Source: Brachionus manjavacas
Lineage: Eukaryota > Rotifera > Eurotatoria > Ploima > Brachionidae
Direction: 5' to 3'
Assembly: GCA_019054805.1 (NCBI GenBank)
Contig: JAHQIY010000006.1
Coordinates: forward strand, 3,968,001-4,032,000
Length of the DNA: 64,000 nt
The translations under genes were made by a program, and so were the position numbers. Numbering within the stretch: position 1 is the first letter of the stretch; each line of letters begins with the position of its first letter. The notes below the pieces were generated by a model. It saw nothing but the letters and a program-made list of their open reading frames with translations. It was not told the DNA's origin and ran no database searches. Positions 16,549 through 63,153 of this stretch are shown in pieces.

Positions 16549-17060
16549 ATTTCTAAAAAGATTTTATTATTTTTTTTATTACATTATTTATTATACAGAT
16601 AAAAATTTCATAAAAAAAGCCAAAGAACTTATTAAAACAAATGGGCTTTTAATTGTCCCTTTTAATATCTATTAAAAAATCTAGAATGTTCTTAGTTTAT
16701 ACTTATGTATTTGTTAAAATTCTGATATTTCCCATATTAAAATTAATAGAAAATAAATGAAAAAAAAATTAAATTAATGTTTTGAGAAATTGATAGCTAT
16801 TAAGTGAAAAATGAAATTTATCATTTTCATTTTCATTTATATGTATGTGTAGTGTTTTTTTTTCGATTTTCCAAGTCAATACAATATATTTTCCAACAAC
16901 CTAACCATAGAGTAGTTATGCTTGAATAGTTAAACTTTTTTTTTATTGTATTGTATTTTTGTACTAATCAAGACTCATTACAAGCGAAAAAAATAGTTTA
17001 TAATAAAAAGCCCTGAATACTATCAAGATAAAAATTGAAAATAAACAAAACTTGTTATGT
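16549..17060. other. AT-rich intergenic, CABIT gene upstream region
   Basis: Upstream of the minus-strand CABIT gene, so its promoter should lie here. Nothing but AT-rich sequence and a short TCATTT repetition near 16820-16840 was seen. Confidence 0.45.
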
Positions 17061-19415: not shown

Positions 19416-19828
19416 TTTTTAGAATTATTTGTAAATAAACAAATTAATTCAATAAGCTCTTTTTTTTTAATTCTCTTAAAAACAAATTTTAACAAAGTTA
19501 AGTCCAAAAAGTTTTTAAAATAATTATAAAACTTGTGATAGATTTATAATTTAGTTTAGATAATTACTTATTTTTACTTTTTTTTGTAAGATAAGCTTAC
19601 ATAATTTCTGTTTAAATATAACTTTTTTATAGAAGCTTTATCTTCATTCGAAATTATCTAATCAATGTAAAATATCAGAATAAAATTCAAAAATTTAATA
19701 AAATTTTTTATTCTTCAAATACAATTAGACAAATTTTATTACATTTATACAAAAATTAAAAAAAAAAGTTAATTTAGGGAAAATGAATCAGTTAATTTAA
19801 TATAAAAAAGACGGAAATTTATTTTTTA
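19416..19828. other. convergent 3' flanks of GAR1 and H2B
   Basis: About 410 AT-rich bases shared by the 3' ends of two convergent genes. No histone-type stem-loop (GGCTCTTTTCAGAGCC-like) is seen after the H2B stop. AATAAA on the minus strand lies within about 20 bases of the H2B stop, which suggests polyadenylated mRNA. Confidence 0.5.
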
Positions 19829-20188
19829 TCATTTTGAGCTTGTATATTTGGTTACAGCTTTGGTACCTTCGCTGACAGCATGTTTTGCCAATTCACCTGG
19901 TAAAATCAAACGAACAGCAGTTTGAATCTCACGACTCGAAATTGTCGATCGACCATTTGAGACAGACAATTTAGCTGCTTCGTTGGCAATTCTCTCAAAT
20001 ATGTCATTTACAAACGAATTCATTATACTCATTGATTTACTAGATATACCAGTATCAGGATGAACTTGTTTGAGTACTTTGAAAATGTAAGAAGAATATG
20101 ACTGTTTCCTTTTCTTCTTTTTTTCCTTCTTTATGTTTTCATTTTTTGACTTGCCCCCTTTAGAGCCTTCGGTCTTTGGTGGTGCCAT
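19829..20188 (-). CDS. histone H2B
   Basis: An intronless frame of 119 residues. A lysine-rich tail ([18 protein letters not shown]) is followed by the H2B histone fold: [54 protein letters not shown] and the C-terminal [20 protein letters not shown]. The length is typical of animal H2B (about 120-125). H2B pairs with H2A in the nucleosome core. It stands alone; no H2A, H3, H4 or H1 gene is adjacent in the window, and no histone 3' stem-loop was seen. Its start is about 510 bases from the divergent ABCA gene. Confidence 0.97.
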
Positions 20189-20696
20189 TTTTTTTCACTC
20201 GAGCTAAGCTTAAGCAGTATGTTTTAAAACTCAGATTGTTTAGTTTTAAATTAGCTTGGTGGTTCAGTATGTGCTTTTATATTTTAAAAAGACACACTTT
20301 TTAAAATTTAAAATTTAAAATTCAAAATTCAAAATTTACCAGACAATTCAAACTTAACTTTTATTCTTTGATTTATTTATCATAATTAGAATTTAAATTA
20401 AAAGCATTAATTTCAAAATTCCGCTAAGACTACATCATTTCCACAATTCCAATATTCAAAGTTTTATTCAGCATAAATATTCCGAACTCTTAGAAAAAAA
20501 TATTTCAGTTTATTACATAAATGAACATTAGTTGAAATAATGTGATCAAAAATTTGATAACCAAGCTATTTTAATTTTATCATGTGACGCATTCATTTTT
20601 GAACCTAACTAAATAATCAATATAAAATGAATTTTAGATTAATTTTTTGTTTAGAATAAATTTTTGGAACAAATATTTCATAGAAAGTTGAATAAA
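20189..20696. promoter_or_regulatory. divergent intergenic region between H2B and ABCA copy 1
   Basis: The start codons of H2B (-) and ABCA copy 1 (+) face away from each other across these 508 bases, so both promoters must lie here. A degenerate heptamer array (AAAATTT/AAAATTC, five units) occupies about 20303-20338. No TATA or CCAAT element could be assigned with confidence. Confidence 0.45.
20303..20338. repeat. AAAATTT/AAAATTC heptamer microsatellite
   Basis: Five consecutive seven-base units alternating between AAAATTT and AAAATTC in the intergenic region between divergent H2B and ABCA copy 1. Confidence 0.7.
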
Positions 20697-23600
20697 ATGA
20701 GTCAAACAGGACTCAAAGAACATGGGTCCGATTTTAAGACTAATTTAAAACAAATTGGTCTTTTAATGTGGAAAAATTTTAAGCTACAAAAAAGAAGTGT
20801 CATTGGTACAATAATTGAAATTCTGGTTCCGACACTATTTGTTCTCATTCTCTTGCCAATTCGAAGAATAGTTAAATCAGATCAATATTTTAATAATACA
20901 GTTTATGATTCATTTTCAATCGATGGGTTGCCAAGTGATCTGTTGCCACAATTCTCAAATGAAAATTCTGACTCAATTTGGAAACGAAATTTGGGAGAAG
21001 GCTTATGGACAATCGGTTATTATCCAAACAATGTTGATTTGATTGAAAAAATAATGAAAAAAGTTGAAAGCGATTTGTTGGTGACCATTAAAGGTCAGAT
21101 AAATAAAAAACATTTTATAAAAATTTTTATTACTCATTATTTTTAATTTTCAGGCTTTGAAACAGAAGAAAATATGGTCAATTATTTGACAAATGAGAAT
21201 AATACCAAAAATTGCCTTGGAGGAATTTCATTTTTAGATCATAGTTTGCAAAACTTCACCTATAAAATACGACTAAGCTACTCGCCTAGATACAACCAAG
21301 GAGGGTAAATACATTATGGTTGAAAATTAAAAAAAAAGAAACTTATTTAATTTTTTAAAGCTTATTTAAAAAAGATTTGGATTGGAAAACCCAGTTTATT
21401 TATTCCCTATTTCCAATTTTGGGACCGAGAGAAAAAAAAGATCTAGAAGGTGGTGATCCAGGTAAAATAATATAAAACAAAAAAAAAGTAAATTTTTCTA
21501 AATCTAAAATAACTAGGTTACTACAGAGAAGGATTTGTTTCCATACAAAAGGCCGTCGATTTTGCTTTGATTTATCAGTTCGACGATTCAGTAGAAAATA
21601 ATGAATTAAGACTCAAAAGATTTCCTTATCCACCATATAATGATGATAAATTCGTGGCTGTAGTACAAGCTTTATTTCCGTTCATTATAATGCTCAGCTT
21701 TATATTTACGGTAATTTTGACAGCCAAGGCAATTGTCTACGAAAAAGAAACTGGAATTAAAGAGGCTATGAAACTAATGGGAATGAAAAGATGGGTATAT
21801 TGGTTAAGTTGGTACATTAAGACTTTTCTTCTTATTCTGCCCGCATTACTGTTCATGATTATTGGCTTTAAAGTAAAAGTTGGCCTTAAATCAGGTGGGG
21901 AAGCGTCCATTATTGATAAAACAGATCCATATTTATTCACAATTTTTTTATTCTTGTATGCATCAAGTTCCATTACTTTCACCTTTTTGTGCTCGACTTT
22001 TTTCAAAAAAGCAAATAGTGCTGCAGCTGGCGCTGGTATTATTTGGTTTTTTTCCTACCTGCCATACATTTTTATTTCGCTACGGTATGAAAAAATGACA
22101 ATTGTAGATAAAGTATTGGCATTGTTTGTGAACAACCTGGCGATGAGCGAAGGAGTATTTTTAATTGGAATGTTCGAAGGAAAAGGAACTGGTATTAATT
22201 TTTCGAACTGGAATGAGGGCATCAGTGTAGATGACACATTTTCGATGACAACAGTTTTATTGGTCATGTTTATTAATAATATAATTCATGTAGTTTTAAC
22301 ATATTACTTTGACAACATTTTGCCTGGTGATCATGGCATTGCCAAACCATGGAATTTTCCGTTTTTAGCAGTGTCTTCATTTTTCAGAAAAAAATTTTCC
22401 ACTTCCGAATCTTATCATAGTTTTTTGGGAGACACTGAGTCAAATAAAAATGTGGGTAAAATAAGAGATGTAAAATATGAAATAAACGGAGATAATCATG
22501 TTCTACCGGTTTATGTCGAAGATGAGTCTTACTATTCGAATAGAAAAATTGGAATCAAAATTGAAAACATTTCTAAAAAATTCAGACAACTTGGCATTGT
22601 TAAGCAAGCTGTAAAAGATTTGTCATTGAACATTTACGAAGGACAAATATCGGTCCTTCTTGGCCACAATGGAGCTGGAAAAAGCACAACTATTTCGATG
22701 ATAACTGGCCTTGCTGAACCAACAAATGGACGAATACTGGTCAATGATATTGATGTAGTTAAGAATACAAAGCAAGCCAGGAAGTGCATTGGTTTTTGTC
22801 CTCAATACAATTTGCTATTTGACGATTTGACTGTTTATGAGCACTTGAAATTTTTTTCAAAATTAAAAGAAAACTTCAATGAACATGAAATAGATAACAT
22901 GCTCGAGTTAATAAATTTAAAGGATAAAAAGCATGCCTTGGCCAAAACACTATCTGGTGGTATGAAACGAAAGCTGTGTGTAGCAATCGCTTTTATTGGA
23001 GACTCGAGTATTGTTATTCTAGACGAACCAAGTAAAAATTGAAATTTATTTGAAAATTTAATTGAGAAAAAAAATTATTTTCAAAAAAGGTTCGGGTATG
23101 GACCCACAGGCAAGACATTCAACTTGGACTTTGCTGCAAAAATTCAAAAAAGAGCGAAAATGCACCATTCTACTCACAACTCATTTTATGGACGAAGCCG
23201 ATTTTCTCGGCGATCGAATAGCCATCATGTCCAAAGGCAGTCTACGCTGTTGTGGTTCTCCTCTTTTCTTGAAGTCAAAATACGGCTCTGGCTACAACTT
23301 GGTCCTGACTAAAAAACGAGACGAACACCCTGTTGATCACGACAAAGAAATAATCAACTTGGTCACAAAATTGATTCCAAATTCTAAATTAAACACAAAT
23401 CTGAAATCCGAAATAAGCTTTGTCTTGCCATCAGAACAAGCAGCCAAATTCAGCTATCTCTTGGATGAAATTGATAATAATAGAGATAGATTGGAAATAG
23501 TGAATGTTGGTATAAGTGTGACAACAATCGAAGATGTATTTTTAAAGTAAATTTTATTATTCATTTTTTCAGATTGTTTTTAATTTTTTAATTTTTTCAT

Positions 23601-26600
23601 TTTAAATTAAAAGAATAGGCGAGCAGGAACATGAAGAAGAAATTGACATAAATGATTTGAAAATGCGTCAAGCTATAAATAACCTTAAGACTCCATCATT
23701 GAATGGTGATGTAGAAAATATTCCGAATCTAAATAACAATGATGAATATGAAAATTTTGGTCTATGGGCAGGTTCTCAAAATTTCGATCTAGTTAAAGGT
23801 TTAAGTCTTTTAGCTCAACAATTTTATGCCTTAATCATTAAACGCATAATTCATTCGTTGCGCAACAAAGCTCTAATATCAACTCAAATCGTGATACCTG
23901 TTTGCTGTCTATTGATAAATCTGTTCTACCTAAAATATGCTCCTATTAAACCCGAAGATTCACCAGCATTAGATATTACCTTGAACCGGTACCAGCACAA
24001 TTTTGTACCTATCAAATTTAATATTTCTTCTACTAATGAAAATTTTGACAAAGTTTCAAAATTAGCAGAAATTTACAAAGAATATGTTGACACATTCAAA
24101 TCTGCTTCTTCATTTTATTTGGAAAATAATTCATCTGCGTCCGAATGTCCTTACCAACGAAACACTATTGATGAATATATTGGATGCTTGGGTAGACTAA
24201 GTCTTAGCTATATAGTAGATGATAATCTTGTTGCCACTGAGTTTACAGTGAATCATTTTAATGACATTTCAATAATTGGTCATTTTAATAATCAGCCGTT
24301 TCATGTTCCACCGTTGGCAATAAGTCTTATAACATCTAGTATGCTTACGCTGTACTCTAACAAATCAAGTAGAATTACAGTGATAAACCATCCATTGCCA
24401 AGAAATCTAAAAGATAAATTAAATGACATGCAACTAAAAGATGTGGCTGGATTCAATATTTCCACTGGCTTGACTTTTGGTTTGTCATTTTTGATTGCAA
24501 GTTTTGCTTTGTTTTTGATAAAAGAAAAAGCAAATGATGCCAAACATGTCCAATATTTAAGCGGATGTAACTCTTACATATTTTGGATAAGTGCATTTCT
24601 GTGGGATTTGTTCAACTATTTTGTGTCTGTCGCACTAGTGCCAATATTTTTAAAAGTAATGGTTCATTAAAATTTTTTTCTTGACTAAAGAATTCTTTAT
24701 TAAAGATATTTGGAATAGAAGAGTTTATGGGCGGAAATAGATGGATTTATGTAATTGGACTGCTTGTTCTATATGGATTTTCCCACATACCACAAATGTA
24801 TTTATTTTCTTATTTTTTCAGAGTTCCAGCTACTGGATTCGCTGCGTTGGTAGTCTGGAACATAATGTCAAGTAATAAATAAAGAAAATTGGATAAAATT
24901 AAAGTTAAAATAACTTTTTTAAGGTCAAGCCACCTTGACTCCAACTCAAATCTTGACACTGCCTCAGCTCGAATTGGTCGATGTGTCCAAATTGCTTGAA
25001 TGGATATTTTTGGTCATCTTTCCAAATTTCACTTTTGGGTAAAACATTAAAATTTTGTAACATTAATCTGATATTTTGCCTGAATTAGCCAAGGTATGAT
25101 TGATCTTTACAACAACTACCAAATAACAAAGATATGCAAACAATTTGTTGATTTGTGCCCCTATGTGCCAAATCCTTGCTGCTATCCATATGAAACAAAT
25201 GATCCGAACAAATGCGGAAATGGCACAGATTGTTTTATGTGGACCGAAAATTATATGAGTTGGGAAAAACCTGGTCTCTTAAGATTCTTTGTGTTTATGC
25301 CAATTCAATTTTTTATAATATTTGGATTAATATTGATTTATGAAGCCGGATATTTCAGATATTTTAAGTACATTCTAAGTAGTCTGTTTAACAAGAAATC
25401 ATTTGAGGTTCAAAATGAAGAACAACTTGAATTAGAACGAGAATATGGTGATATAAAAAAAGATGAAGACGTTATTAGAGAAGAGATAAGAATTTCAGAA
25501 AACTTAATTAATCCTATAGAAGAAATATTTGTAGTTGATGGCATTACCAAATACTACTCTAATTTCATGGCAGTCAAGGGGATAAGCTTTACTTTGAAAT
25601 CATCTGAATGCTTTGGTCTACTTGGCGTAAATGGTGCTGGAAAATCGACTAGCTTTAAAATGTTAACCGGTGATGAATATTTGACAAAGGGTGATGCTTC
25701 AATCAACCGAATCAGTATTAAAGATGACATAAAAAAATATCAGAAAAAACTTGGCTATTGTCCTCAATTCGATCCTCTAATTGACCAAATGACAGTGATG
25801 GAAACTATGGTTATGTATGCTAGATTACGAGGACTTAAGCCAAACATAATCAAAAATACTTGTCTTTCGTTGATTAATCTGTTGGACTTGGATGATCACA
25901 TTGAAAAAATGTGCTACACACTTAGTGGTGGAAACAAGCGAAAGCTGTCAGTGGCCATAGCTTTGGTCGGAAGCCCTCTTGTTCTTTTGCTTGATGAACC
26001 AACATCGTAAGTTTTTTCATTTTCAATTGTGGACTTACTTAATTTTATTCAAAATACTTGATTTTATTCAAAAGCGGTATGGATCCAATTACCAGAAGAA
26101 CTTTGTGGAATTGTTTGATCAAAATAAAAAACAAAGGAAAATCTTTGATATTAACTACGCACAGGTGAATTGATTTTTTAAAAATTTATTTAATTTATTA
26201 TTTAAATTAGTTATCTATTTATGAAATAAAAAAAGAAATTTTCTAAATTATTAATTATTAATTAAAGACTAAGAAATTTGAATTTTTTTTTTATTCTGTA
26301 AAGCATGGACGAAACTGAAGTTTTGTGTTCAAATATTGGCATAATGGTAAATGGTGAATTCAAGTGTATTGGTAGTCTTCAGCATCTGAAGAGCAAATAT
26401 GGAGAAGGATACACTTTGATGGTCAAAATTAGTTTGGATAAAAAACCTAATGAAATTGATAGAACAAATATAGTTGATGGCAATCAAATAGTTATCGAAA
26501 GAAGTGACGAATCAATGTCAAATGACCGCAATCAAAAAGTGAATCAATTCATCGAATTCATTTTAGATAAAATCAAAAACAGCTATGTCAAAGAGAACCG

Positions 26601-26811
26601 TGATGGTTTTGTTAACATACACATAAATGACAATTCAACTTCAGTTCTATCGAAAGTATTTTCGATAATAGAAGAGATTAAAACACAATTTTCGATTGAA
26701 TATTATATTGTTACTCAGACCAAATTAGAGCAGATATTTTTAAATTTTGCTTCAAGACAGATTGATCCCGAAACACGCTTAACAAACAAATCATTTTTAC
26801 GTTGTTGTTAA
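20697..26811 (+). CDS. ABCA-type lipid transporter, tandem copy 1
   Basis: Eleven exons: 20697-21093, 21154-21304, 21361-21461, 21517-23031, 23090-23546, 23614-24655, 24706-24871, 24924-25038, 25089-26006, 26075-26164 and 26304-26811. They give one frame of 1819 residues, a full-length ABCA (TMD1-NBD1-TMD2-NBD2). The first helix follows [16 protein letters not shown], an ABCA hallmark. NBD1 has GHNGAGKST near residue 598, LSGGMKRKL and VILDEP, then [17 protein letters not shown]2 has GVNGAGKST near residue 1493, [17 protein letters not shown] and TTHSMDETE. A large Cys-bearing extracellular loop follows each first helix. Members move lipids across membranes. Introns fall right after both Walker B motifs. 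Both NBD regions, introns included, are almost identical in DNA to those of copy 2 (33481-39439), unlike the rest of the gene. It shares an intergenic region with divergent H2B. Confidence 0.95.
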
Positions 26812-27206
26812 AATTTTAACCAAAATTTTTTTTAAAAACATTGTGTCATGTATTACACTAAAAGCATTTATAGTTAATTTAGAATAATATAATTAATTTT
26901 TCATTTAAATTTATTCTATTGTTATAATCAAAATTTTAACTTTCAATATCATTTTATTTCGTAAATTAAATATTTATAATAAAACTTCCAATTTAATAAT
27001 AAATTCTCCTAATTTTATTTTCCTTTACTATTCTCATTTGATTCAATTGGGCTTTAATCTAAAAATGTCAATGATTTTAAGTCGTTGAATTTATTTATTT
27101 ATTAAAGTTAATTTTAAGCCCCATGGGTAGAATTATATTTCTAGAAAATGGAAAGTTGAGAATAAAGTTAAATGTTAAAAAGTAGGGTATAAAAAAAATA
27201 AGAAAA
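26812..27206. other. AT-rich intergenic, ABCA copy 1 3' flank
   Basis: About 395 AT-rich bases between the ABCA stop and the LINE remnant. AATAAA-like strings occur near 26980-27000 and may serve as the polyadenylation signal. Confidence 0.45.
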
Positions 27207-28330
27207 TCATTTTGCAAAAAAATTTATCTTTAACAGGTCATTTAATATATTATATGAATTATAAAAATTTGAATAGTCAAAATTTAATTCCATATCTAAT
27301 TTGATTAGGGAGGCGACAAATTCTACCGAATCAAATAAACCACGATTTATATCCATAAATAAATGATTTTTATAGTTATCACGTAGGATATTCAAGATAT
27401 TCAAGATATTCCAGCAGATTGAGCTATTCTTTAACTGCTTCAAGAAGAATTTTTCATGCTTAATGTTTAGTTTTTCCACCATCTCTAAGTTCAAAGTTTC
27501 CAACAGAGGTCCAGTCCGGTTGCAATTTTTTTAATTCCTAGTGCTCTTTAAATACATAAATTTTGTCTTTTGTCTAATTCTCTTAGTTTATTTTCAGTTA
27601 AATAGACCAAATCTAGATGGTAGCGAAACATCGATTGGCAAAGCTGTTTATAGAGAAAGCTGAATTCAGATTTTGGTTTACAGTAAAGTCCGTATAAAGA
27701 ATAAAAATTCCTCTCAACTTTTTGCCACTTTTCTTCAATAAATTTTCAAATGAAATTACTATCACCAATCGGGAGACCTAAGTATCCAATTTTTGAGTTT
27801 GTGGTATCTCAAAACCTTTAAGAATAAAGCTGTCCGCACTCAAAGTTCTGCCTTTTTGAAAGATGTTACGGTGTGAAAATAACCGTTTCAACTATTTAAA
27901 TTAATCTTATCAATATTTACAACTCATCTAGATTTTATCTTTATGCTTTTATGAATCATTAGTCGCCGAAATTTCCTAGACCAACAAAGATTATCGCAGC
28001 AGATTTACTTTGATTAAAATCAATTTTCTATTTTTCAGCGAATTTTGAACATTTGTCCAAGAGGAGTTGACAATGGCCAAATGTCGTTGCTTCTACTAGA
28101 ATCACAAAAACCAATCACAGATAATTTCACTCCATATATGGATGCACCAAGCTTTAGGTCAGTACATTCATTGAATAGGTCTTTTATAAAAAAGTTAAAC
28201 AAGTAAGGAGAAAGAATACTCCCTTGTCTGACACCCTCATTTCTAATCTATTCTAAATCAAGTCTATGATTTTAATTAGTTGAATGTATAAAATTATTTC
28301 CAAAAAAATACTCTTGTTCCTTAGCAACAA
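27207..28330 (-). mobile_element. decayed non-LTR retrotransposon (LINE) reverse transcriptase, 3' part
   Basis: Reading the minus strand from about 28230 downward gives GVRQGSILSPYLFNFFIKDL, the standard LINE palm motif, followed by VIGFCDS in the place of the catalytic YADD block. Then come YLGLPIGDSN, WQKVERNFYSLYGLYCKPK and FSFLYKQLCQSMFRYHLDL, and RALGIKK. The last 98 codons (27207-27503) stay open, beginning near ETLNLEMVEKLNIKHEKFF. Several stops and frame changes separate the pieces, so the element is dead and 5'-truncated. The layout suits Jockey/CR1-type LINEs, but the clade is not assigned. It lies immediately upstream of the LRR gene, on the opposite strand. Confidence 0.8.
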
Positions 28331-28378
28331 GTTTAGATTTAGTATTCTGGTTTGATTTTTCCAAATATCTGTCACCAA

Positions 28379-30149
28379 ATGTTCGAATTTCAGGCTCAAA
28401 TTATTGAATATCATGACAAATTGATGAATCGAGTTGATATTTTTTTCGAAGAGATATTAATTTCGAACTATAAACCTATTTGGCGACAAGTTATAATTCA
28501 AAAGATAAAAGAGATAGCAGAATTCAATTTAAGAATTCAAAATTCAAAATACAAATATTGCTATTTTTTTGGTCCAATTGATAAGTTGTTTTTAAAGTTT
28601 CTCTCAAGAAATGAGACTGGTACTGAATTATCTGAATCTAAAGTTGGTCTTTTGCTTATAATCAATGAGATGGTTCCCAACGAAGTTTATAGAAAATTGG
28701 TGTAAAATTCTTTTTATTTTTTAGTTTTAATTTAAACCCTTTTTTATCTTATCTTACCATTTTATTAAGGGAGCTGCTGGATAATTGTGAAGAATATGAT
28801 GTAATGGATTATAGAAAATTTGATTCTTTGGAAACAAGTGAGATTTTTTTATTTATATATTAGTTCTTTTGAAAAGAATACTTTTTTAAGTTACTAAAGT
28901 TGGAGTCATTCATCAATTAATGATTGAGAATTTTAATCATCCAATTATTGATTTAACAAATAACTCAAATTTAGAATTAAAAAGAATTGAAACGACTTTC
29001 ATAAACAAGGATTTAAGTGAAAAAAATTTGGAATTTTTACCAAAATATTTAAATATCGAAAAAATCAATGAAATTTTCTGTCACAGCGATACGTCTTTGT
29101 GTCTCGAAAACATTCCCAGTGAGTTTTTTAACCAATTTAAATTCATTACAAAAATACGCTTTAGCTGCTGCATCATCGAGAAATTAATTTCACATAATTT
29201 CACTTGTCTTGAAAATTTAATTTTTTTGCAATTATTTCATTGTAGTATCAGAACAATCGAACCGAATGCTTTTTATGGGCTCAAAAAACTTCAAAATCTT
29301 CTAATTACAGAAAGTTATTTGATAGATTTGGACCCAAAAGTATTTTGTGGTCTTGAGAATCTTATTTATTTAAATTTGGATGCAAATCTCCTCGGAAAAA
29401 TTAGAATAAACAATTTTGTACATCTAAAAAAATTAAGACAACTCGTACTCACTACAAATTGTATTGAAGAGTTAGACAACGATTGTTTCAATGGATTAGA
29501 TAATTTAAAAGTTTTGCAACTTAGTTATAATAAACGATATCTTATTTTGAATCCGGAAATATTCAACCACATATCAAATCTTCAAGTTTTGTACTTGAAT
29601 AGTATGTACATGGAAAAATTTGATCAGAACATTTTCAAATATCTTACGAATTTAAAATTTTTGGACTTAAGCAATAACACACTTGGGGATGCTTCAATTT
29701 TAAACCACTTAATAAATCTGGAAGCACTAAATATTCACACAAATCAAGATTTGACAAATATTGAAAAATTGAGACTAAAAAGTTTAAGAGTTTTGGTGAT
29801 TAATCAATGTAAAAATTTCAAATTAGGCTCAGAGTTTGAGAATCTTCAAATTTTAAAAATTGATCAATTTTTTGGATTCGAAGAAAATTTTTTTGAAAAT
29901 TTGAAGAGTCTGGAAATTTTGAAGATATTTCCACAAGATTATTCAGTTATTGAAAATTTGAATTCTGATGATCTCAAATTGGCAAAAAATTTAAAATATT
30001 TACATATAGAATTAGACGACAAATCAGTGTATACAAAAATTGAAGGCCAAGTTGATTTTTTTAAAGGCTTATTTGATTCAAATCTCCAGATCATGCACAA
30101 TATTGTTATTGATTACTCAAATTTAAATTTAAAGGTGATTTTATGCTAA
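28379..30149 (+). CDS. leucine-rich-repeat protein, cytoplasmic type, unknown role
   Basis: Three exons, 28379-28701, 28770-28837 and 28891-30149, join in one frame of 549 residues. The first ATG of the frame is at 28379. Residues 1-180 are a helical, charged leader without a signal peptide (FEFQAQIIEYHDKLMNRVDI). From about residue 205 there are LRRs of about 24 residues, for example LENLIFLQLFHCSIRTIEP, LKKLQNLLITESYLIDLDP and LTNLKFLDLSNNTLGDAS, becoming irregular toward the C terminus. No transmembrane segment or known catalytic domain is seen. The N-terminal part matches nothing I know, so binding partners cannot be guessed. The gene sits between the two ABCA copies and starts about 50 bases after an antisense LINE remnant. 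Confidence 0.82.
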
Positions 30150-31640
30150 TTTGAATGCCCCGGATTTTTTTTAAATTAAATAATGAAAAAATTATCAATT
30201 TTTTTTCTTTCAAGGTGAATTAAGTATCAAAAAATAATTAAGGACAATAATTTTTTGCTCGATTTTCAAATTGCTTTTTTTGTTTAAAAATTTTAATTAT
30301 TTATGGAATGCATCTAATTATTGCATATTTAATTTTTAGAGAAAAAAGAGCTATTTGAAATTTGAGAAAAAAATTTAATTCGCTTGATTATTTCTCGAAA
30401 TTAATTAAAAAAAAACAAATTAAACATTTTTTTAAAATTCGGGCATTCAATTGCTAATTTTCGCTTGTTTTAAATTTTTACTTTTTTTAAGATAATGACT
30501 TGTAATTCAATTAAGGATTATTTTAAAGAAAATTTAAAGATTTCAATCGATATTCAGGAAGATGTATATCAAATGATTTAAAAATTAAAAAATAATTTAA
30601 TTGTAAATCAGAAAATTTGCTATATCTAATCAAAAAGATGATTTCAGAAGACTGGAAACTTTTTAACTGAATTTGTTTTGAATTTTTTTTACATTTTTTT
30701 TACATTTATTTTTAAAGTTTATATCAATTTTTAATTCTAAAAGGTAATAAAGTTCAAGGTAAAATAAAATTTACGGTTCTTTTTATAAGAAACAATAAAC
30801 TGCTATTTAAACAAAGCATTTAAATTTTTGAGAATGACATACAAAAATTGATAAAAATGTCATCTACAAGCTTGCAACTTAAAAAATAAGATTAAAATAC
30901 AAACAACGAAAATTAAAATCCAGTTTTTCTATTCCCTTTTTAAAAAAAAAATTTAAATTTAATCAGACTTTAATCAGCCTAGTGATCAAATTCTAAAATC
31001 TTCTTTTTTATAGCATTTTTAGCCAATCTTTAATAAAAAAGCTTAAAAATTTGTTTGAATTTTTGATTTGATAAAATTTTGAATTTTTACATTTAATAAT
31101 CAATATTACTGAATTTGAAATAAAACTTGATTGATAAAAATAAAATTTTCAATTTTTTTTTAATAAACAAGAAATTATACTGTACACTAAATTAAATTAT
31201 CAGAAAAAATTCTAAAAATAAACAACTTAAATTGATCAGAAAAGTTATAGAATGGTAAGACATAACCAAACTAGATCTTTAAATTTAAATCTAGAATTAG
31301 TATTTCAAAAAATATAATTTCTATTTTAATCTGAATTTTTTTCATGTTAAATTGCTATTTTTTTGCCAATAGAACGTTTAAAAAGGTTTTTTGATAGTTT
31401 TGACCATTTGTTAGAAAATTCAATTTCTTTAATTTACAATATAATTATCAGGTTTCTAATTTTTGTTGATAGTTCATATATTTTATCTCAAAAATTAGGA
31501 GGTTGAAAAACATTATTTTTTCACCATGGATTCAATAATTCAATAATTTCTTTAGCTTGCTGCTCATAAAGTGCAGGGCAGCATGAATACAAATTCTTTT
31601 AGAAAATAATATTGTAAGAAGAGGACAAATGTTTTATAAG
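30150..31640. other. AT-rich intergenic region
   Basis: Downstream of the LRR gene. A and T runs dominate, no exon or RNA gene was seen, and no mobile-element protein trace was found. Confidence 0.5.
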
Positions 31641-31670
31641 TTATTTGATCTCAGCTTTCATTTGAAAAAA

Positions 31671-32290
31671 AAGTCCAACCTGTAAGCCGCCTCGTGGTCC
31701 CCCAGGACCACCAATCATAGGGGTCAATTTCGATATTTTGGACGATGAAACTTCCAAAAGATAATTTTAACCTTTTCTGGGTAATCGAGGACCCTCTATT
31801 AGAATATCTGCAAAATTTCATGCGTCTGTGTTGCGTTTTTCACAAGATATCGTTAAAAAAACATTTTTTTCTCTTTCTTAAGTTTAAAGCGTTATAACTC
31901 CTGATCCGAATTATCAGGTGGTTTTATTAATATATCATTTTGTAGAAAATTAAATTTAGAAGAAATTGTTCGAGACACTTTTTTAATATTGAATTTAATT
32001 TTTAATTAAGATTCAGTTGAAAAAAAACGACCAGCGCGGCCGTCCGTCCCTGCCTGTTTGCGGCTCCGAACCGACCGACCTTAGCGACCTAGACGGCCGA
32101 CCTAAGCGACCTTGCCGGCATACCATAGCGACCTTTAATTTAAACCAAAATCTGATGATCAGGAGAATAAAATTTAAATTTAAATCAAAGGTCGCTTAGG
32201 TCGGCCGTCTAGTAAGGTCGGACGGGTCGGACTTGTTAGGACGCCAAAGTTACCGTCGCCCGGCCAGATCGCTGGCGTTACGTTTTTATT
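31671..32290. mobile_element. GC-rich inverted-repeat island, possible non-autonomous element
   Basis: A GC-rich block in AT-rich surroundings. A perfect 25-base inverted repeat has arms 32089-32113 and 32188-32212 (core GACGGCCGACCTAAGCGACC and its complement). The pairing continues imperfectly outward on the left to about 32066 and on the right to about 32230. The motif GCGACCT recurs at 32085, 32106 and 32128, so the hairpin can pair in more than one register. Upstream, GTGGTCC and GGACCAC form a 7-base stem with a CCCA loop at 31694-31711. No transposase or target-site duplication was identified, so the class is open: foldback/MITE-like element, structured RNA or satellite fragment. Confidence 0.5.
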
Positions 32291-33480
32291 AAAACCGCTG
32301 TAAATTCTAAAGCTAAAAATGTTCTCCTTTTATTTTAAAAAATATTCAACATTTGACCAAATTATTATTGTAAAAAATACGATAATAATAATAATAATTG
32401 TAAATAATGTAAAATTATTCTATAACATTTTTTTTATTAAAATTAATAATTTGATTAATTAAATCTATATAAAAAAATTAAAAAATTAGCAAGTAAAAAA
32501 ATTTAAACTTTTTTATTCAAGTGATTAGTACAGCCACATTATTCATAAATATCTATTGCTAAATAAGAAATTTTTATAATTATTTTTTTCTCATCTGAAC
32601 CATTCAATACTTATACTCAAAGCAAGTAAAATTACAGCTAATGAATGTCACATTCATTTAATTTTTTTACTTTTTGTTTTATTTTGAATTTGAGAAGCTT
32701 AAGCTTAGTTCAGTATATTAAAAAAAAAAAAGATTAATGAAAATATCGCGAAAATAGATTTTCTTTAAAACATAAATAATATAAAAATATAATTATAAAA
32801 TCATTTAGAAAATTTACATTCCTTTGGAAATTTTAAAAAACCAATATTTGATAAAGAGGCTATTATTTGTCTTTTATCCTTTCTAAATGTAGTTTTATAT
32901 ATCCCCATTTTAGGTAAAAAGACATCAACCCTTAAATTTACAGCAATCAATTCTAAAAAATTCAATAAAACATATTCGAGCTTTTATATAGACTCTTGAC
33001 TCAAATATGATGATATCAAAAGATATTGTTTGTTTAATATTATAAAATTCATTAAAATTTTGATTGAAATGATTTTAAAATCTTACTTTATTAAAAACAA
33101 AAGCAGTCGTCATTCAAAAAAATAATCAATAAGAACTGAATTTTAAATTTTTTATCCCGATATGATAATTTGAATAAAATTGCGTAATATTTATTTGAAT
33201 GTCAAGATAGGACATTATCTAGCAAAATATTATTTAGTACTTTAATAATAAAAAACTAAAAAGCCTTTATCGTTTTTTTTAGATTAAACTTATTTGATAA
33301 ATAATTTCAAAATCTTATACATTTTAGTATGATGAATTTATACTTTAAACTTATTCTTAAAATTTTATGTCTCATGCACCTGAACGTCTACTTCTATCTT
33401 AAAACTTACGCAACTTAAGAAAAATTTGTTATTTAACTTTCTTAAACTTTTGAAAAAGTTTTATTAAGATTGATTATAAA
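32291..33480. other. AT-rich intergenic, ABCA copy 2 upstream region
   Basis: About 1.2 kb of AT-rich sequence ahead of ABCA copy 2, with a short (AAT)n-like run near 32380-32396. The copy 2 promoter must be here; no motif could be assigned. It shows no obvious similarity to the upstream region of copy 1. Confidence 0.45.
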
Positions 33481-36400
33481 ATGGTTAAGAAAGAATGGAA
33501 AACAAATTTCAAACAGTTAATTCTGCTTTTATGGAAAAATCTTAGACTACAGCTTAAATCACCAGTAGGACTAGCTTTGGAAATTTTGGTACCCGCAATT
33601 TTCGCGTTCATTTTATTGCCAATTAGATCAATTGTAGACTCAGATCTTTTCAATGAACCGACTTTTTTTTCCCCATTCAATATCGACACGCTACCATTGA
33701 AATTTTTATTAGAACAATATTCAATCGCATATCATCCGAATAGTTCAGAATTTATCCCAAATTTAATGTTGGAAGTTGGATCAGATTTAAATCTAACACC
33801 AATAGGCAAATAATAAAAATGAAAATAACCTTGAATAAATCTGATTATTTTATACTAAAGGATTTAGAACTGAAAATGAAGCAGTCGATTATGCCATTGA
33901 TAACAACTTTGCAGCTAATTGTTTGGGAGTTATTTCATTTATTAATCAGGATGAAACTAGTTTTGTCTATAAAATTCGCTTAAGTCATTCTCCGCGGAAT
34001 AATCCTGGATTGAGGTAAAATTTTCTGACTAAAATTAAATTCAATTTCACTTGGTTTTTTTTTCTAGTACTTTTAGTCGAGACAACGACTGGAAAACTAA
34101 TGTGTTGTATCCATTTTTTCCTGTTTTAGGTCCTAGGAATAAAGAAGTGAATGACGGAGGATCACCTGGTAAAATGAAACAAATAATAATTTTCGATTAC
34201 TAATCAGAATTTTAGGATACTTTAGTGAAGGATTTTTATCACTACAAAAATCAATTGATTTTAACTTATTAAATGTTTTCAATGATTCAGCTAAATCAAT
34301 TAATCTAAATCTAAATCGATTTCCGTATCCGCCTTATAACAATGATCCGTTTGTGGCTATCATTCAAGCATTATTTCCATTTATTATAATGTTGAGCTTT
34401 ATTTTCACAGTTGTGCTGACTGCTAAGGCTATAGTGGCCGAAAAGGAATCAGGTATCAAAGAAGGAATGAAATTAATGGGCATGAAGCCATGGATATATT
34501 GGTTGTCTTGGTACATTAAAACTATGGGAGTTATATTGCCAGCAATTATTTTTATAGTTGTAAGTTTTAAAATTCCACTAACTGTTAAAAGTGGAGCTAA
34601 AGCATCAATTATCAATAAAACCGACCCATTTTTGTTTTTCTTATTTTTAATTTTGTATGCTTCAAGTTCTGTGACTTTGACCTTTGTGTGCACGACATTT
34701 TTTAAAAAAGCAAATAGCGGAGCTGCTGGAGCTGGCGTAATATGGTTCTTTTCCTACCTACCATACATTTTTATATCTCTTCGCTATGAAAAAATGACTC
34801 TTGGGTTAAAGGTGATTTCGTGCTTTGTGAATAATTTAGCCATGAGTTTGGGAGTTCAATTGATTGGAATGTTTGAGGGAAAAGGCACAGGAATTGACTT
34901 TTCCAATTGGAATGAAGGCTTGAGCGTGGATGACACTTTTTCATTATTTAATGTGATGATTATTATGGTGGCTAATAATTTTATAAATTTGATTTTACTA
35001 TATTATTTTGACAATGTACTACCTGGAGATCGAGGAATTTCAAAAGGTTGGTTGTTTCCAATAGAATTTTTGCGAAGTGCAAAAAATAAACGAGTTAATT
35101 CGGAAATTAACTTAAAAACTATGGATTATGATTTAAATGCCAATACTCGAAAAGAAGATTTATTTAATGAAAGATCAACTGAAGATGAGTCTTTTTATTC
35201 GAATAGAAAAATTGGAATCAAAATTGAAAACATTTCTAAAAAATTCAGACAACTTGGCATTGTTAAGCAAGCTGTAAAAGATTTGTCATTGAACATTTAC
35301 GAAGGACAAATATCGGTCCTTCTTGGCCACAATGGAGCTGGAAAAAGCACAACTATTTCGATGATAACTGGCCTTGCTGAACCAACAAATGGACGAATAC
35401 TGGTCAATGATATTGATGTAGTTAAGAATACAAAGCAAGCCAGGAAGTGCATTGGTTTTTGTCCTCAATACAATTTGCTATTTGACGATTTGACTGTTTA
35501 TGAGCACTTGAAATTTTTTTCAAAATTAAAAGAAAACTTCAATGAACATGAAATAGATAACATGCTCGAGTTAATAAATTTAAAGGATAAAAAGCATGCC
35601 TTGGCCAAAACACTATCTGGTGGTATGAAACGAAAGCTGTGTGTAGCAATCGCTTTTATTGGAGACTCGAGTATTGTTATTCTAGACGAACCAAGTAAAA
35701 ATTGAAATTTATTTGAAAATTTAATTGAGAAAAAAAAAATTATTTTCTAAAAAGGTTCGGGTATGGACCCACAGGCAAGACATTCAACTTGGACTTTGCT
35801 GCAAAAATTCAAAAAAGAGCGAAAATGCACCATTCTACTCACAACTCATTTTATGGACGAAGCCGATTTTCTCGGCGATCGAATAGCCATCATGTCCAAA
35901 GGCAGTCTACGCTGTTGTGGTTCTCCTCTTTTCTTGAAGTCAAAATACGGCTCTGGCTATAACTTGGTCCTGACTAAAAAACGAGACGAACACCCTGTTG
36001 ATCACGACAAAGAAATAATCAACTTGGTCACAAAATTGATTCCAAATTCTAAATTAAACACAAATCTGAAATCCGAAATAAGCTTTGTCTTGCCATCAGA
36101 ACAAGCAGCCAAATTCAGCTATCTCTTGGATGAAATTGATAATAATAGAGATAGATTGGAAATAGTGAATGTTGGTATAAGTGTGACAACAATCGAAGAT
36201 GTATTTTTAAAGTAAATTTTATTATTCATATTTTTTCAGATTGTTTTTATTTTTTTTCTAAAGAATTGGTGAAGAAGAAGCATTGGGGGAACCAGAGGTA
36301 AAAAATAATGGTTTAGCCAACAATGCATATGAACATGAATTACCAGCAATACATGTTCAATTACCGTCAAATAACCATTTGGAAAACATTGGTTTATGGG

Positions 36401-39400
36401 CTGGTTCTAAAGATGAAGACAACATTACTGGTTTAGGATTTATCTTGTTTCAATTTTATGCTTTATTTGTCAAACGCTTTATCCATTCTATTCGTAACAA
36501 AAGCCTTTTTATCACCCAATTACTTATTCCGATCGGATGTGTTTTAATTAACATGATCTATTTAAAATATGCACCGATAAAACCATCTGATTCACCACCT
36601 TTAACAATCGATTTAGGCAGCTACCAGCAAAATTTAGCTCCTTTTATTTACAGCCCATCTGAGCCATTCATGTCTAATATAGCTAAAATATTTGAATCAA
36701 ATCTAAAAATGTACCCAAATACAGAGGTAGTTAACATCATGGAAAATACGTACTTGGAAAATTGTAAAACCAAAAATAATGATATAGACGAATTTTTAAG
36801 CTGTTTAGGTCTAATTAATGGCTATTACTTGATTGATAAAACAGTCTTAGCAGCATCTTTTAATGAAAATAACTCAATAATTGGTCACTTTAATAATCAA
36901 GGATACCATGCATCTCCGTTGATTCTAAACCAAATTTCAAATGTTCTTTTAAAATATTTCTCTGGTAAAAATAATGCAACCATTACTGTTATTAATCATC
37001 CACTACCTCGAAATACTACCGAAAAACTAAATGATGCATTAACTCAAGAATCTGCTGGTTTTAATGTGGCATCAGGTTTAACTTTTGGTTTTTCATTTTT
37101 GATCGCTAGTTTTGCGATTATTCTAATTAAAGAAAAAACATCAAGCGCCAAGCACATTCAGTATATGAGCGGCTGTAATTCAAATATTTACTGGTCAAGT
37201 TCGTTAATATGGGACATGCTGAATTATCTTGTTCCATCCGCGATTGTTATGGTCATTCTAAAAGTAAACAATTCTAAAATAATTTCAATTTTTTTATTGT
37301 TATTTTTTAGCTTTTTGAAATTAAACAATTTGTAAATGACGACAGATGGTTGTATTTTTTGTTTTTGCTTTTCCTTAATGGTTTAGCTCACTTGCCACAA
37401 ACCTATTTATTATCATATTTATTCAATATTTCGGCAACCGGATTTGCCATTATTACATTATGGAACATATTATCAAGTAATAAATAAAAGAATTAAATTT
37501 ATTTTTTAAATTTAATTCGTAATAAAGGTCAAGTTACATTAATAGCAGTGAATATATTAAGTTCTCCAATTTTGGATTTGTCAGATGTAGCTAGATCATT
37601 GGAATGGGTTTTTTTGATTATTTTTCCTAACTATGCGTTTGGGTAAGCTTGAATTAAAAAAAATACTTATTTTTAATTCAAGATTTTTAAGACAAGGAAC
37701 TGTGGATCTATACGAAAACTATAATCGAATTGAACTTTGTAAAAATTTGACATTTTTATGTAAGTTTATACCTAATCCATGCTGTCGATATGAAAATGAA
37801 GGCATGAAAGATCCGTGTGGAGAACAACCTTGTTTTTATTGGAATGAAAATTATTTTAGTTGGGAAAAACCTGGTATTTTAAGATTCGTTATTTTTATGA
37901 TTATACAATTTCTAGTGCAATTTGGCATCATATTGCTCTATGAGGCTGGAATATTGAAAAAAATATTTTATATATTAAGAAAGCAATCTAAACCTACAAA
38001 TACTGATAATCAAATTGAATTGGAAAAAGAATTCGGAGATATTTCCAAGGATGATGATGTAATTAATGAAGAGAATCGAATCAGACAAAAATCTTGTTTA
38101 GATGAAGAATTTTTTATTGTTGATGGCATTACCAAATACTACTCCAATTTCATGGCAGTCAAGGGTATAAGCTTTACTTTGAAATCATCTGAATGCTTTG
38201 GTCTACTTGGCGTAAATGGTGCTGGAAAATCGACTAGCTTTAAAATGTTAACCGGTGATGAATATTTGACAAAGGGTGATGCTTCAATCAACCGAATCAG
38301 TATTAAAGATGACATAAAAAAATATCAGAAAAAACTTGGCTATTGTCCTCAATTCGATCCTCTAATTGACCAAATGACAGTGATGGAAACTATGGTTATG
38401 TATGCTAGATTACGAGGACTTAAGCCAAACATAATCAAAAATACTTGTCTTTCGTTGATTAATCTGTTGGACTTGGATGATCACATTGAAAAAATGTGCT
38501 ACACACTTAGTGGTGGAAACAAGCGAAAGCTGTCAGTGGCCATAGCTTTGGTCGGAAGCCCTCTTGTTCTTTTGCTTGATGAACCAACATCGTAAGTTTT
38601 TTCATTTTCAATTGTTGTCATACTTAATTTTATTCAAAATACTTGACTTTATTCAAAATACTTGATTTTATTCAAAATACTTGATTTTATTCAAAAGCGG
38701 TATGGATCCAATTACCAGAAGAACTTTGTGGAATTGTTTGATCAAAATAAAAAACAAAGGAAAATCTTTGATATTGACTACGCACAGGTGAATTGATTTT
38801 TTAAAAATTTATTTAATTTATTATTTAAATTAGTTATCTATTTATGAAATAAAAAAAGAAATTTTCTAAATTATTAATTATAAATTAAAGACTAAGAAAT
38901 TTGAATTTTTTTTTATTCTGTAAAGCATGGACGAAACTGAAGTTTTGTGTTCAAATATTGGCATAATGGTAAATGGTGAATTCAAGTGTATTGGTAGTCT
39001 TCAGCATCTGAAGAGCAAATATGGAGAAGGATACACTTTGATGGTCAAAATTAGTTTGGATAAAAAACCTAATGAAATTGATAGAACAAATATAGTTGAT
39101 GGCAATCAAATAGTTATCGAAAGAAGTGACGAATCAATGTCAAATGACCGCAATCAAAAAGTGAATCAATTCATCGAATTCATTTTAGATAAAATCAAAA
39201 ACAGCTATGTCAAAGAGAACCGTGATGGTTTTGTTAACATACACATAAATGACAATTCAACTTCAGTTCTATCGAAAGTATTTTCGATAATAGAAGAGAT
39301 TAAAACACAATTTTCGATTGAATATTATATTGTTACTCAAACCAAATTAGAGCAGATATTTTTAAATTTTGCTTCAAGACAGATTGATCCCGAAACAAGA

Positions 39401-39439
39401 TTAGTTTCGAAAAAGACTAAAATGTCATTAAAGTTTTAG
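33481..39439 (+). CDS. ABCA-type lipid transporter, tandem copy 2
   Basis: Eleven exons: 33481-33805, 33861-34014, 34068-34168, 34216-35694, 35755-36211, 36264-37263, 37311-37476, 37528-37642, 37692-38591, 38698-38787 and 38926-39439. They give one frame of 1766 residues with the same exon plan as copy 1. The first intron has no usable GT donor and must start GCAAAT (a GC-AG intron). The protein opens [21 protein letters not shown]1 runs through [20 protein letters not shown], and the NBDs carry [27 protein letters not shown] and LSGGNKRKL. The transmembrane and extracellular parts differ from copy 1 at many residues, but the NBD-coding DNA (35178-36211 and 38120-39396) is almost the same, synonymous sites and introns included. 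The C terminus ends differently ([10 protein letters not shown]). Intron 9 carries an expanded 19-base repeat. Substrate is unknown; lipid export is typical. Confidence 0.95.
38621..38697 (+). repeat. 19-base minisatellite in ABCA copy 2 intron 9
   Basis: Four tandem units of TACTTGATTTTATTCAAAA or a close variant fill the end of intron 9 up to the acceptor. The homologous intron of copy 1 (26036-26073) has two units. Confidence 0.85.
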
Positions 39440-40368
39440 AACTTTTTATTAATTTTTTTGAAATATTTAATCAAAAATTTAATTTTTTATAATAAATTGA
39501 AATGAATCTTTTGTGAAAAAAAAACATGTTCTAATTGACCGAATTTAACAAAATTTGTGCAATGATTTAATTGACTTCAAGAAAATTTAAAAAATCAAGA
39601 AAATTTAAAAATCTTATTTTTCGATAGTTTAGTAAAAATAAAAGACCATTTTAAAATCCTTTACTTGTAAATCATACCTGTTCTTAAATATTTATTAAGA
39701 AAATATGTATTTATTATTCTTTAAACAGCAATTAAAAACAATTTAGATTAGCCCTTAATCATTTTTTTATTACTTAAAGCTCAAAATATACTTGGAAAAA
39801 TGACCAAGATTTTCCTTTTTTAAATTACTTGATAAACTATCTATCTAGTGTATTTGTATTGGTATTTTTTCGTCTTTAAACAAAAATTTTCATTCAAGTT
39901 TGAAAAATCATGATAAAAATGCGATGTTTCAAAATTAAAAAAAATTAAATCACTCTTTACACAGAACAGCAGTTTTCACAGATTTTAATTAAATTCGTGG
40001 TGGAAATTATTAAAGAAATAAGGTGAAATCGATTTTAAAATCAATTTATAATTATTGAGCCGATTTTTGATAACAAATTAAAATAACAAATTAAATTCAA
40101 AACCAATTAAAATTATTTTTTGTTAAATTTTTTTCTTAATAATAATTTAATCGTTAAAATAAATTAATTATATAATTATTAAATTTTTAAACTTTGATTT
40201 TCACATTTAAATTATAAACAAAGTTGACAGGATACACTTTTGCTTATACAAAAATTGGAATTAATCTCCAATTAATTATGACAATTGGAGATTTTTCAAA
40301 CGATAATTAATAATTAATAACTTTAAATTAAGTTTATTAATGGATATAAAAACAAAAATAAAAACATT
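39440..40368. other. AT-rich intergenic, convergent 3' flanks
   Basis: Lies between the stop of ABCA copy 2 (+) and the stop of the GPCR (-). AT-rich with no exon or RNA gene visible. CAATTGGAGA and TCTCCAATTA near 40265-40292 form a small inverted repeat. Confidence 0.45.
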
Positions 40369-41424
40369 TTATTGCTTTTTTGAACATAATTTAGAATAGC
40401 CAAAAAATCTAAAAAATTCATCCCGATATCTATTATTAAAAATCAAAAGTATTACCGGATTAAACGATGAATAAACGTAGCTCATCCAGTAACCTATTTC
40501 TAGAATTAAATCACTAACACATTCATTACAAAAGGCTTTTAATGGCCAAGTTACACAGAATACTGAGAACAAGACGCTTAAAAAGACTGAAATGCTCCAT
40601 ATACACATAATTGCTTTTTTTTCCCTGTTAATACGATCTTGCTTTGCTTGAAATTTATTTTTCTCATCTTTTTTGTCCGATGATTTGGAATTGGTGAAAT
40701 TTTGCGATTGGTTCTGAAGACTTATGTCACTAAATACTCTAACCGTACTTTTTTTGGTCGCTGTTCCAAGTTTTTCAGCTTTTTTGATAAATTTTTTCCT
40801 CAACTCCCAATAAACCAAAGTGTTCATAACAAACACGCTAAGAACTGGAAGAAAATACCCAATAGAATCAGCTACCAGAACGTAGATAAACGTATATGTA
40901 AAATAGCAATTTCTCGATTCAAAGTTTTGACGAGTAATTAGAATTACAGATAAGCCCCAAAATGTATAAATGAGAATCCATTTTCCGATTAGAATAAAAT
41001 ATTTATCTCTAGTCATATTTTCATTAACTACCAGTGGCCATTTGAGTTGTCTAAATCTGTGAATAGACATAAGTAGAAGGCTGTAAATGCTTACGGTTCC
41101 GATTGAAAAATCGTTAATTACCCAAAATATACAAGTTGCTTCTCCTAGAGGCCAAACACCAAATGTTGTAAATATGGTCATAAATGGAACAGACATTAAA
41201 CCGATCATAAAATCAGACAATGTTCCAGACAAAAAAAGAAAATTTGAATAGGTTTTTCTCTTCAGCCTAAATAAAATTATGTAAATTATTGATCCATTAA
41301 AAAATATGTTTAAAATGGCCAAAATAACTTTGGCTGTAATTAGTAGTATTATTTTGTAATCCTTTTGAGTTTTGCATTCACTAATATTTTTGATTGAAAA
41401 ATTAAGATTTGTTTGATTTAACAT
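40369..41424 (-). CDS. rhodopsin-family GPCR, aminergic-like
   Basis: An intronless frame of 351 residues with seven hydrophobic segments. TM1 has NIFFNGSIIYIILF, TM2 has LSGTLSDFMIGLMSVPF with the conserved Asp, and TM3 reads CIFWVINDFSIG then LLLMSIHRF. The Cys, the Asp seven residues later (amine-binding position in aminergic receptors) and the Arg of the DRY position are all in register, but DRY itself reads HRF. Loop 3 is basic, about 60 residues long. TM6 has CVTWPLKAF, with Trp next to Pro instead of the usual WxP, and TM7 has SSFNPVILLIF instead of NPxxY. NQTNLNFSIKN near the N terminus offers glycosylation sites. The TM3 Asp and TM7 YSSFNP pattern resemble histamine/muscarinic-type receptors; the ligand cannot be named. 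Confidence 0.88.
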   Translation of the reverse strand: MLNQTNLNFSIKNISECKTQKDYKIILLITAKVILAILNIFFNGSIIYIILFRLKRKTYSNFLFLSGTLSDFMIGLMSVPFMTIFTTFGVWPLGEATCIFWVINDFSIGTVSIYSLLLMSIHRFRQLKWPLVVNENMTRDKYFILIGKWILIYTFWGLSVILITRQNFESRNCYFTYTFIYVLVADSIGYFLPVLSVFVMNTLVYWELRKKFIKKAEKLGTATKKSTVRVFSDISLQNQSQNFTNSKSSDKKDEKNKFQAKQDRINREKKAIMCIWSISVFLSVLFSVFCVTWPLKAFCNECVSDLILEIGYWMSYVYSSFNPVILLIFNNRYRDEFFRFFGYSKLCSKKQ

Positions 41425-63095: not shown

Positions 63096-63153
63096 TATGT
63101 GTCTAAATTTGAAGAATTTTTCCAATTTAATAATGATGAAAAGAGAGAAAGTT

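Follow-up and report, generated by a model that had tools for sequence, protein, structure and literature searches.

Near-identical cytosolic modules in two diverged tandem ABCA3-like genes of Brachionus manjavacas

Two ABCA3-like genes in tandem

The stretch of Brachionus manjavacas contig JAHQIY010000006.1 analysed here (64,000 nucleotides, hereafter the window) has a GC content of 27%, short introns and genes of animal type, and it carries two ABCA3-like genes arranged head to tail on the plus strand: copy 1 (20697-26811, 1819 residues) and copy 2 (33481-39439, 1766 residues). Spliced models of both genes were built by hand from reading frames and splice sites, resulting in 11 exons for each. 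Both genes are intact, with no internal stop in copy 1 and a single terminal stop in each. Their ten introns occupy matching positions and have identical phases (1,2,1,1,2,0,1,2,2,2). All modelled introns are of the GT-AG type with the exception of intron 1 of copy 2, which has an apparent GC donor (33806-33807); copy 1 has GT at the same position and phase. An open reading frame (ORF) with leucine-rich repeats (28890-30149, plus strand, 419 residues) is situated between the two genes, which are therefore neighbours without being directly adjacent.

The protein of copy 1 is organized in the order TMD1-NBD1-RD1-TMD2-NBD2-RD2 (TMD, transmembrane domain; NBD, nucleotide-binding domain; RD, regulatory domain). 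It gives two Pfam matches to ABC_tran, two to ABC2_membrane_3 and one to R1_ABCA1 at the C terminus, and an identical set of matches is obtained with the exon ORFs of copy 2; RD1 of copy 1 was recognised by alignment to ABCA3 only. In a PDB search made with the copy 1 protein the best match is ABCA3 (7w01, the human protein) with 1129 bits over residues 16-1803; ABCA1, ABCA4 and ABCA7 rank next. By this homology, both genes encode ABCA3-like full transporters and resemble lipid transporters.

Two near-identical tracts and their limits

Comparison of the window with itself by BLASTN gives a match of 22518-23589 to 35181-36256 at 99.2% identity and a joined match of 24374-26781 to 36982-39403 at 80%. 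A two-state hidden Markov model (HMM) applied to the base alignment, with each gap counted as a single event, finds exactly two near-identical tracts in the gene pair. Tract 1 extends over 22533-23582 in copy 1 (residues 556-874) and over 35196-36249 in copy 2 (residues 521-839); it contains NBD1, RD1 and intron 4, and it extends 36 bases into intron 5. Tract 2 extends over 25534-26775 in copy 1 (residues 1464-1808) and over 38119-39397 in copy 2 (residues 1409-1753), containing NBD2, RD2 and introns 9 and 10. The limits in copy 2 are given by the HMM and residue mapping, and all four tract placements, like the blocks outside them, lie on the plus strand. Upstream of tract 1, the block encoding extracellular domain 1, TMD1 and a linker (20697-22532 in copy 1) corresponds to 33481-35195 in copy 2; between the tracts, the block encoding a linker, TMD2 and extracellular domain 2 (23583-25533) corresponds to 36250-38118. 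We refer to these two blocks as unconverted.

The copies differ by 4 events in 1052 positions of tract 1 and by 10 in 1243 of tract 2, while outside the tracts the HMM alignment of the pair is ~59% alike. In windows of 100 alignment columns the identity is 41-84% outside the tracts and 96.5-100% inside them, with mixed values across the edges, and the longest exact runs shared by the copies are 534, 449 and 434 bases. The near-identity of the NBD regions in otherwise diverged tandem ABCA genes had been noticed in the first-pass annotation, made by eye from the letters alone; BLASTN and the HMM agree with it, and its coordinates are good to within some tens of bases.

Tract 1 holds one exonic substitution, which is synonymous, one intronic substitution and two intronic indels. 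The exonic one (C at 23295, T at 35960) had been named correctly in the first-pass annotation as the only one of its kind. The limits proposed there for this tract (22519-23546 and 35178-36211) hold roughly: the first 14 bases contain two further differences, with the TAC/TTT codon at 22530 (Tyr/Phe) falling in this part, and at the 3' side the tract reaches the above-mentioned 36 bases into intron 5. For tract 2 the proposed near-identity of 25533-26776 and 38120-39396 stands practically unchanged; it holds four exonic substitutions, all synonymous, four intronic ones and two intronic indels. Inside the otherwise near-identical intron 9 of this tract a 19-base tandem repeat is present in 2.0 units in copy 1 (26036-26073) and in 4.1 units in copy 2 (38620-38696), which amounts to a copy-number difference of 38 bases. 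This difference in repeat number is a fast change that followed conversion.

The silent sites are divided in the same way. According to the Nei-Gojobori count, the proportion of synonymous differences (pS) is 0.744 upstream of tract 1 (509 codons) and 0.742 between the tracts (568 codons), i.e. silent sites are saturated outside the tracts. In the tract cores it is 0.0049 (tract 1) and 0.0147 (tract 2), and the nonsynonymous divergence (dN) is 0 in both. The amino-acid identity is 0.585 in the upstream block and 0.486 in the between-tract block, and in these two blocks the same codon is used in 276 of the 547 degenerate codons that agree in amino acid. Over all 1199 degenerate codons with the same amino acid in both copies, codon identity persists for 231 codons at the longest, compared with a maximum of 68 in 20,000 shuffles made by a script of our own on the logic of GENECONV, with the identities of the tracts themselves kept in the pool. 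The runs of identity exceed chance by this permutation. The sliding comparison of divergence that the first-pass annotation had named as a check (run here as base alignment and silent-site counts) demonstrates that the differences are spread unevenly and concentrated outside the tracts.

Introns follow the tracts as well. Introns 4, 9 and 10, located inside the tracts, are 98%, 96% and 99% identical, each value exceeding 200 of 200 core shuffles; intron 5, half of which belongs to tract 1, is 94% identical, a value reached by 2 of 200 shuffles. Introns 1-3 and 6-8, located outside, are 63-80% identical, values that 15 to 169 of 200 shuffles attain.

These observations bear on the possibility that strong selection on the NBD sequence, at the protein or DNA level, kept the modules alike without any exchange. 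The NBD1 core is indeed more conserved than TMD1: copy 1 is identical to ABCA3 in 130 of 229 positions of the former and in 95 of 241 positions of the latter. RD1, however, is 100% identical between the copies, though it is no more conserved than the TMD (28 of 80 positions identical to ABCA3), and elsewhere only about half of the amino-acid-identical degenerate codons are identical as codons (276/547, see above). As the copies agree in 180 of 245 positions of the same TMD1 stretch, an estimate with ABCA3 as a yardstick (one outgroup, 7w01, and a simple proportional rate) predicts that without conversion the NBD1 core would be ~83% and RD1 ~71% identical; the observed value is 100% for both. 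Since silent sites and introns are near-identical too, selection on the protein cannot explain the tracts. The first-pass annotation had argued the same, and pS near zero in the cores together with 96-99% identity of introns 4, 9 and 10 bears it out. Selection without exchange, at whichever level, is hardly credible.

No extended homology was detected between the gene flanks (18501-20696 compared with 31001-33480, and 26812-28800 with 39440-41400). All flank matches among those listed are short, the longest being 68 bases and the best E-value 3e-5, and three upstream matches that were checked consist of DNA with 7-11% GC. With only short flank matches listed, the pair is not a young whole-region duplication, and a recent duplication of the whole gene or the whole region was rejected. 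The mirror image of this explanation is a recent whole-gene duplication followed by replacement of the TMD and extracellular blocks and of the flanks from a third, diverged ABCA gene. Logically it would yield the same mosaic, and a third paralogue may be present elsewhere in the genome. It would need, however, at least three replacements, including non-coding flanks that lack extended homology, compared with two for conversion of the NBDs, and both unconverted blocks are saturated to an equal degree (pS 0.744 and 0.742). We consider it very improbable.

The tracts are in register with the protein modules. Among the matches listed for NBD1, most bacterial and archaeal NBD chains align from residue 559-563 (the exceptions are 1vpl, from 575, and 1g29, from 578), and among those listed for NBD2 the NBD chains align from residue 1462-1464; therefore the start of each tract is only a few residues away from that of the NBD fold. 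At its 3' side tract 1 stops in intron 5, just past the last RD1 motif that aligns with ABCA3. Tract 2 ends 11 residues before the protein end, past RD2, the Pfam match of which extends to residue 1789. In both tracts the homogenised unit, as delimited by these alignments, is the whole cytosolic module, the ATPase together with its regulatory domain. The first-pass annotation had restricted the homogenisation to the nucleotide-binding domains; these are indeed in the tracts, but each tract also spans a regulatory domain, and because RD1 is not a conserved part the extent of the module exceeds what an NBD-only account covers.

Windows of 200 bases beside the four edges are 55.5, 57.0, 62.4 and 53.5% alike; for 35 such windows taken from the unconverted parts the median is 60.1% and the minimum 49.2%. 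The proposal that the tracts stop where the genes are least alike fails, as the edge windows resemble other unconverted windows. At the amino-acid level, the identity in windows of 60 codons is low on either side of tract 1 (35% and 33%) and average immediately before tract 2 (52%); the lowest value overall is 27% at 24023-24206. By ordinary expectation, a similarity of 53-62% at the edges is too low for stable pairing. Since the similarity is low everywhere around the tracts, the edges neither prove nor exclude selection; they would fit failed pairing, selection favouring whole modules, or a combination of the two. Random placement of tracts, in which 288 of 1,184,818 placements fell within 30 bases, was circular, as the observed starts served as the target, and it was not used.

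Origin of the tracts

Most probably, the two genes are old tandem ABCA3-like paralogues that underwent ectopic (interlocus) gene conversion confined to NBD1 with RD1 and to NBD2 with RD2, and this happened recently enough that only ~1-2% of silent sites have changed since. We assign to conversion and its recency jointly a probability of about 0.88. Conversion, put forward already in the first-pass annotation for the nucleotide-binding domains, and its restriction to the two cytosolic modules are strongly supported by the homogenised silent sites and introns, by the saturation of the rest of the genes and by the sharpness of the edges. The identity of the tracts, its reach into introns, the saturation elsewhere and the register of the modules are observed directly; the repair steps, as well as the donor, the number of events and any role of selection, are inferred. 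A break or stall in one module would be repaired with the matching module of the neighbour as template (NBD1 from NBD1, NBD2 from NBD2), the repair synthesis would copy exons and introns alike, and the copying would halt where pairing of the genes is lost, at the linkers and close to the 3' end of the coding sequence. Conversion tracts reaching into the transmembrane or extracellular domains either could not form or would be eliminated by selection. Exchange between NBD1 and NBD2 within one gene was considered and rejected, as their amino-acid identity is 41% and their DNA matches over at most 85 bases at 68%; with so low an identity the exchange stayed with the corresponding module.

Repeats of 1.0-1.3 kb lying ~12.6 kb apart are of the kind that short-read assemblies collapse, and a single collapsed or mis-filled repeat consensus placed in both genes would give near-identical tracts as well. 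A copied consensus would not, however, differ between its two placements by 10 substitutions and 4 indels, among them the 38-base difference in repeat number. Besides, none of the 5 exonic substitutions changes an amino acid, as in real genes under selection, and a collapse requires near-identical genomic DNA beforehand. An assembly artefact is therefore improbable.

The codon composition of the tracts raises the question of the donor. When stratified by amino acid, the GC content at third codon positions (GC3) of the tracts is higher than that of the rest of copy 1 (odds ratio 1.38, p = 0.005) and of the rest of copy 2 (odds ratio 1.59, p = 6.5e-5). A value above the rest of either copy is in line with conversion of both copies from a third, unlinked ABCA gene, but GC-biased conversion or the codon use of NBDs would raise GC3 too. 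Closer paralogues generally convert more often (PMC3924837; this and the other papers cited by accession are drawn on in part), and the comparison of the window with itself (BLAST, E up to 1e-10, matches longer than 80 bases) reveals no third copy. A 29-base probe from tract 1 had no matches in prokaryotic and viral contig sets, which says little about further copies. The third gene as a donor thus has a low probability. Between the two genes themselves, the codon composition of the tracts is nearer to that of copy 1 and leans weakly toward copy 1 as the donor, though the raised GC3 could be a trace of GC-biased conversion instead of a donor signal.

The first-pass annotation spoke of two distinct events. 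Two tracts are certain, but two events are not: silent substitutions occur at 2 of 298 sites in tract 1 and at 8 of 416 in tract 2 (for which the silent-site number was set at 210, between the computed 204 and 213.7), and the ages of the tracts are not significantly different (Fisher p = 0.21). Three of the eight silent changes of tract 2 lie within five bases beside the 19-base repeat and may represent one slip. Two events at the same time would likewise leave tracts of equal age. The tracts could have arisen by two events or by one repair event with re-invasion of the template across TMD2, or they could be the remains of repeated conversion.

Several points weigh against recent conversion as stated above. 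To the left of tract 2 the genes are 62% alike compared with the median of 60%, so that loss of homology does not single out this edge. When the edge bases of tract 2 are included (25530-26780), its pS rises to 0.028 and dN to 0.002, a less clean picture. The comparison concerns two paralogues of one genome, and an assembly error and a third donor paralogue each keep the low probability given above. Finally, genes whose silent sites are saturated should seldom pair, an argument for recurrent conversion over a single one, though one genome cannot separate them. Sequence identity is a main determinant of conversion, although linked genes can convert at moderate divergence, as stated in the part of PMC3966223 used here. 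On balance, the favoured reading is that conversion has recurred and has thereby preserved the likeness of the modules from earlier times on, in which case the present data record the last round only.

This is an unusually clean case, as silent divergence, saturated outside and 1-2% inside, lets the ends of the tracts be located with a precision of a few bases. The idea of the first-pass annotation that the engine is kept common while the substrate-handling parts diverge, whether taken as an effect or as a purpose, goes further than the evidence and is unproven. A practical warning follows for phylogeny: in a tree made from NBDs only, the two genes, though old, would pass for the product of a very recent duplication.

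Neighbouring features and comparable gene pairs

Several other features of the window were recorded. In the AT-rich intergenic DNA between the ABCA genes there is a GC-rich island (32030-32300) containing an inverted repeat of 25 bases that is perfect (32089-32113 / 32188-32212) and another of 19 bases whose arms match at 89%; it resembles a small transposable element or a hairpin. Shortly before the start of copy 1 (19275-19405), coding-like tandem repeats rich in Gly and Arg, with units of 24, 12 and 18 bases, belong perhaps to a putative GAR-domain protein. On the minus strand, a single-ORF gene for an Hsp70 of the endoplasmic reticulum type (BiP/GRP78; 61125-63173, 682 residues from stop to stop) and an ORF with a weak, below-cutoff match to the CABIT domain (15685-16563) were found. 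A search against Rfam at the gathering threshold gave no matches.

Conversion mosaics of homogenised and diverged sequence are an established outcome of the process; what is of interest here is the sharpness of the tracts, their double module-wide extent and their possible recurrence. In human red/green opsin genes, likewise a tandem pair, conversion-homogenised DNA lies beside a functionally distinct diverged stretch; there, however, a small protected peak of divergence stands in a homogenised background, whereas the window pair has two homogenised islands in a diverged one (PMC3924837). Conversion of coding sequence with diverged flanks is described for C. elegans col-12/col-13, where it includes an intron, and for Drosophila Amylase (PMC3966223, PMC3924832). 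Unlike the window pair, in which two domains inside a diverged gene are affected, these genes are homogenised over the entire ORF or coding sequence.

Among ABC transporters, the tandem genes ABC11 and ABC1 of Candida krusei (Pichia kudriavzevii) are 98% identical through recurrent gene conversion (PMC6053246). The likeness is that tandem ABC transporter genes are homogenised by conversion; the difference is that the window pair is 59% alike and only its two cytosolic modules are homogenised. ABC11 and ABC1 are, moreover, PDR (ABCG-type) genes of a yeast, in contrast to ABCA genes in an animal-like genome. The abstract of Lamping et al. (Genetics, 2017) reportedly places the protected differences in the transmembrane spans. 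Conversion limited to particular domains of a tandem family is said to have been described for the protocadherin cluster by Noonan et al. in 2004; that cluster differs from the window pair in being a many-member array and in encoding a different protein. For bird ABCG2 genes GENECONV gave no clear evidence, according to the part of PMC7362505 used. Among the open-access titles and abstract openings listed, none reports a conversion confined to the NBDs in a pair of ABC transporters.

The closest case for comparison is the human pair ABCA3/ABCA17P, neighbouring genes with an overall homology of 47% (PMC1579226). The same source gives exon identities of 98.0% for exon 16, 97.4% for exon 31 (running into intron 31), 90.5% for exon 32 and 88.9% for exon 30, and 42.9-75.8% for the other 13 of 17 comparisons. 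In the part used, its authors obtained no significant result with GENECONV and drew no inference of conversion. Domain names for these exons are absent from that part, and the following placement is our own, made by comparing the printed exon-end letters with the ABCA3 rows of the PDB alignment: the counterpart of exon 16 would lie in NBD1, from LKG to GSK, and that of exon 31, which starts C-ATG-GAG-GAG (S-M-E-E), in NBD2. Exon 11 of the window genes starts S-M-D-E at the same position of NBD2.

Both pairs consist of neighbouring ABCA3-type paralogues with near-identity limited to a few exons. Unlike the window pair, ABCA3 and ABCA17P are arranged head to head, one human member is a pseudogene, and single exons rather than modules are concerned (PMC1579226). 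If conversion acted there too, NBD-limited homogenisation would be known in two distant ABCA3-type pairs. A tentative extension, which we regard as somewhat doubtful, is that the NBD and RD modules of ABCA3-type neighbours are a shared cassette, which recurrent conversion would keep common, with selection acting against any conversion that extends into the membrane or extracellular parts, while the remainder drifts to silent saturation; ABCA3/ABCA17P would then be an independent, so far unrecognised case. If so, the tract ends would mark the exchangeable unit of an ABCA protein, the ATPase with its regulatory domain. The same pattern seen independently in sister species or in pairs like ABCA3/ABCA17P would be direct evidence that conversion holds one part of a protein common as the remaining protein becomes unrelated in silent sequence.

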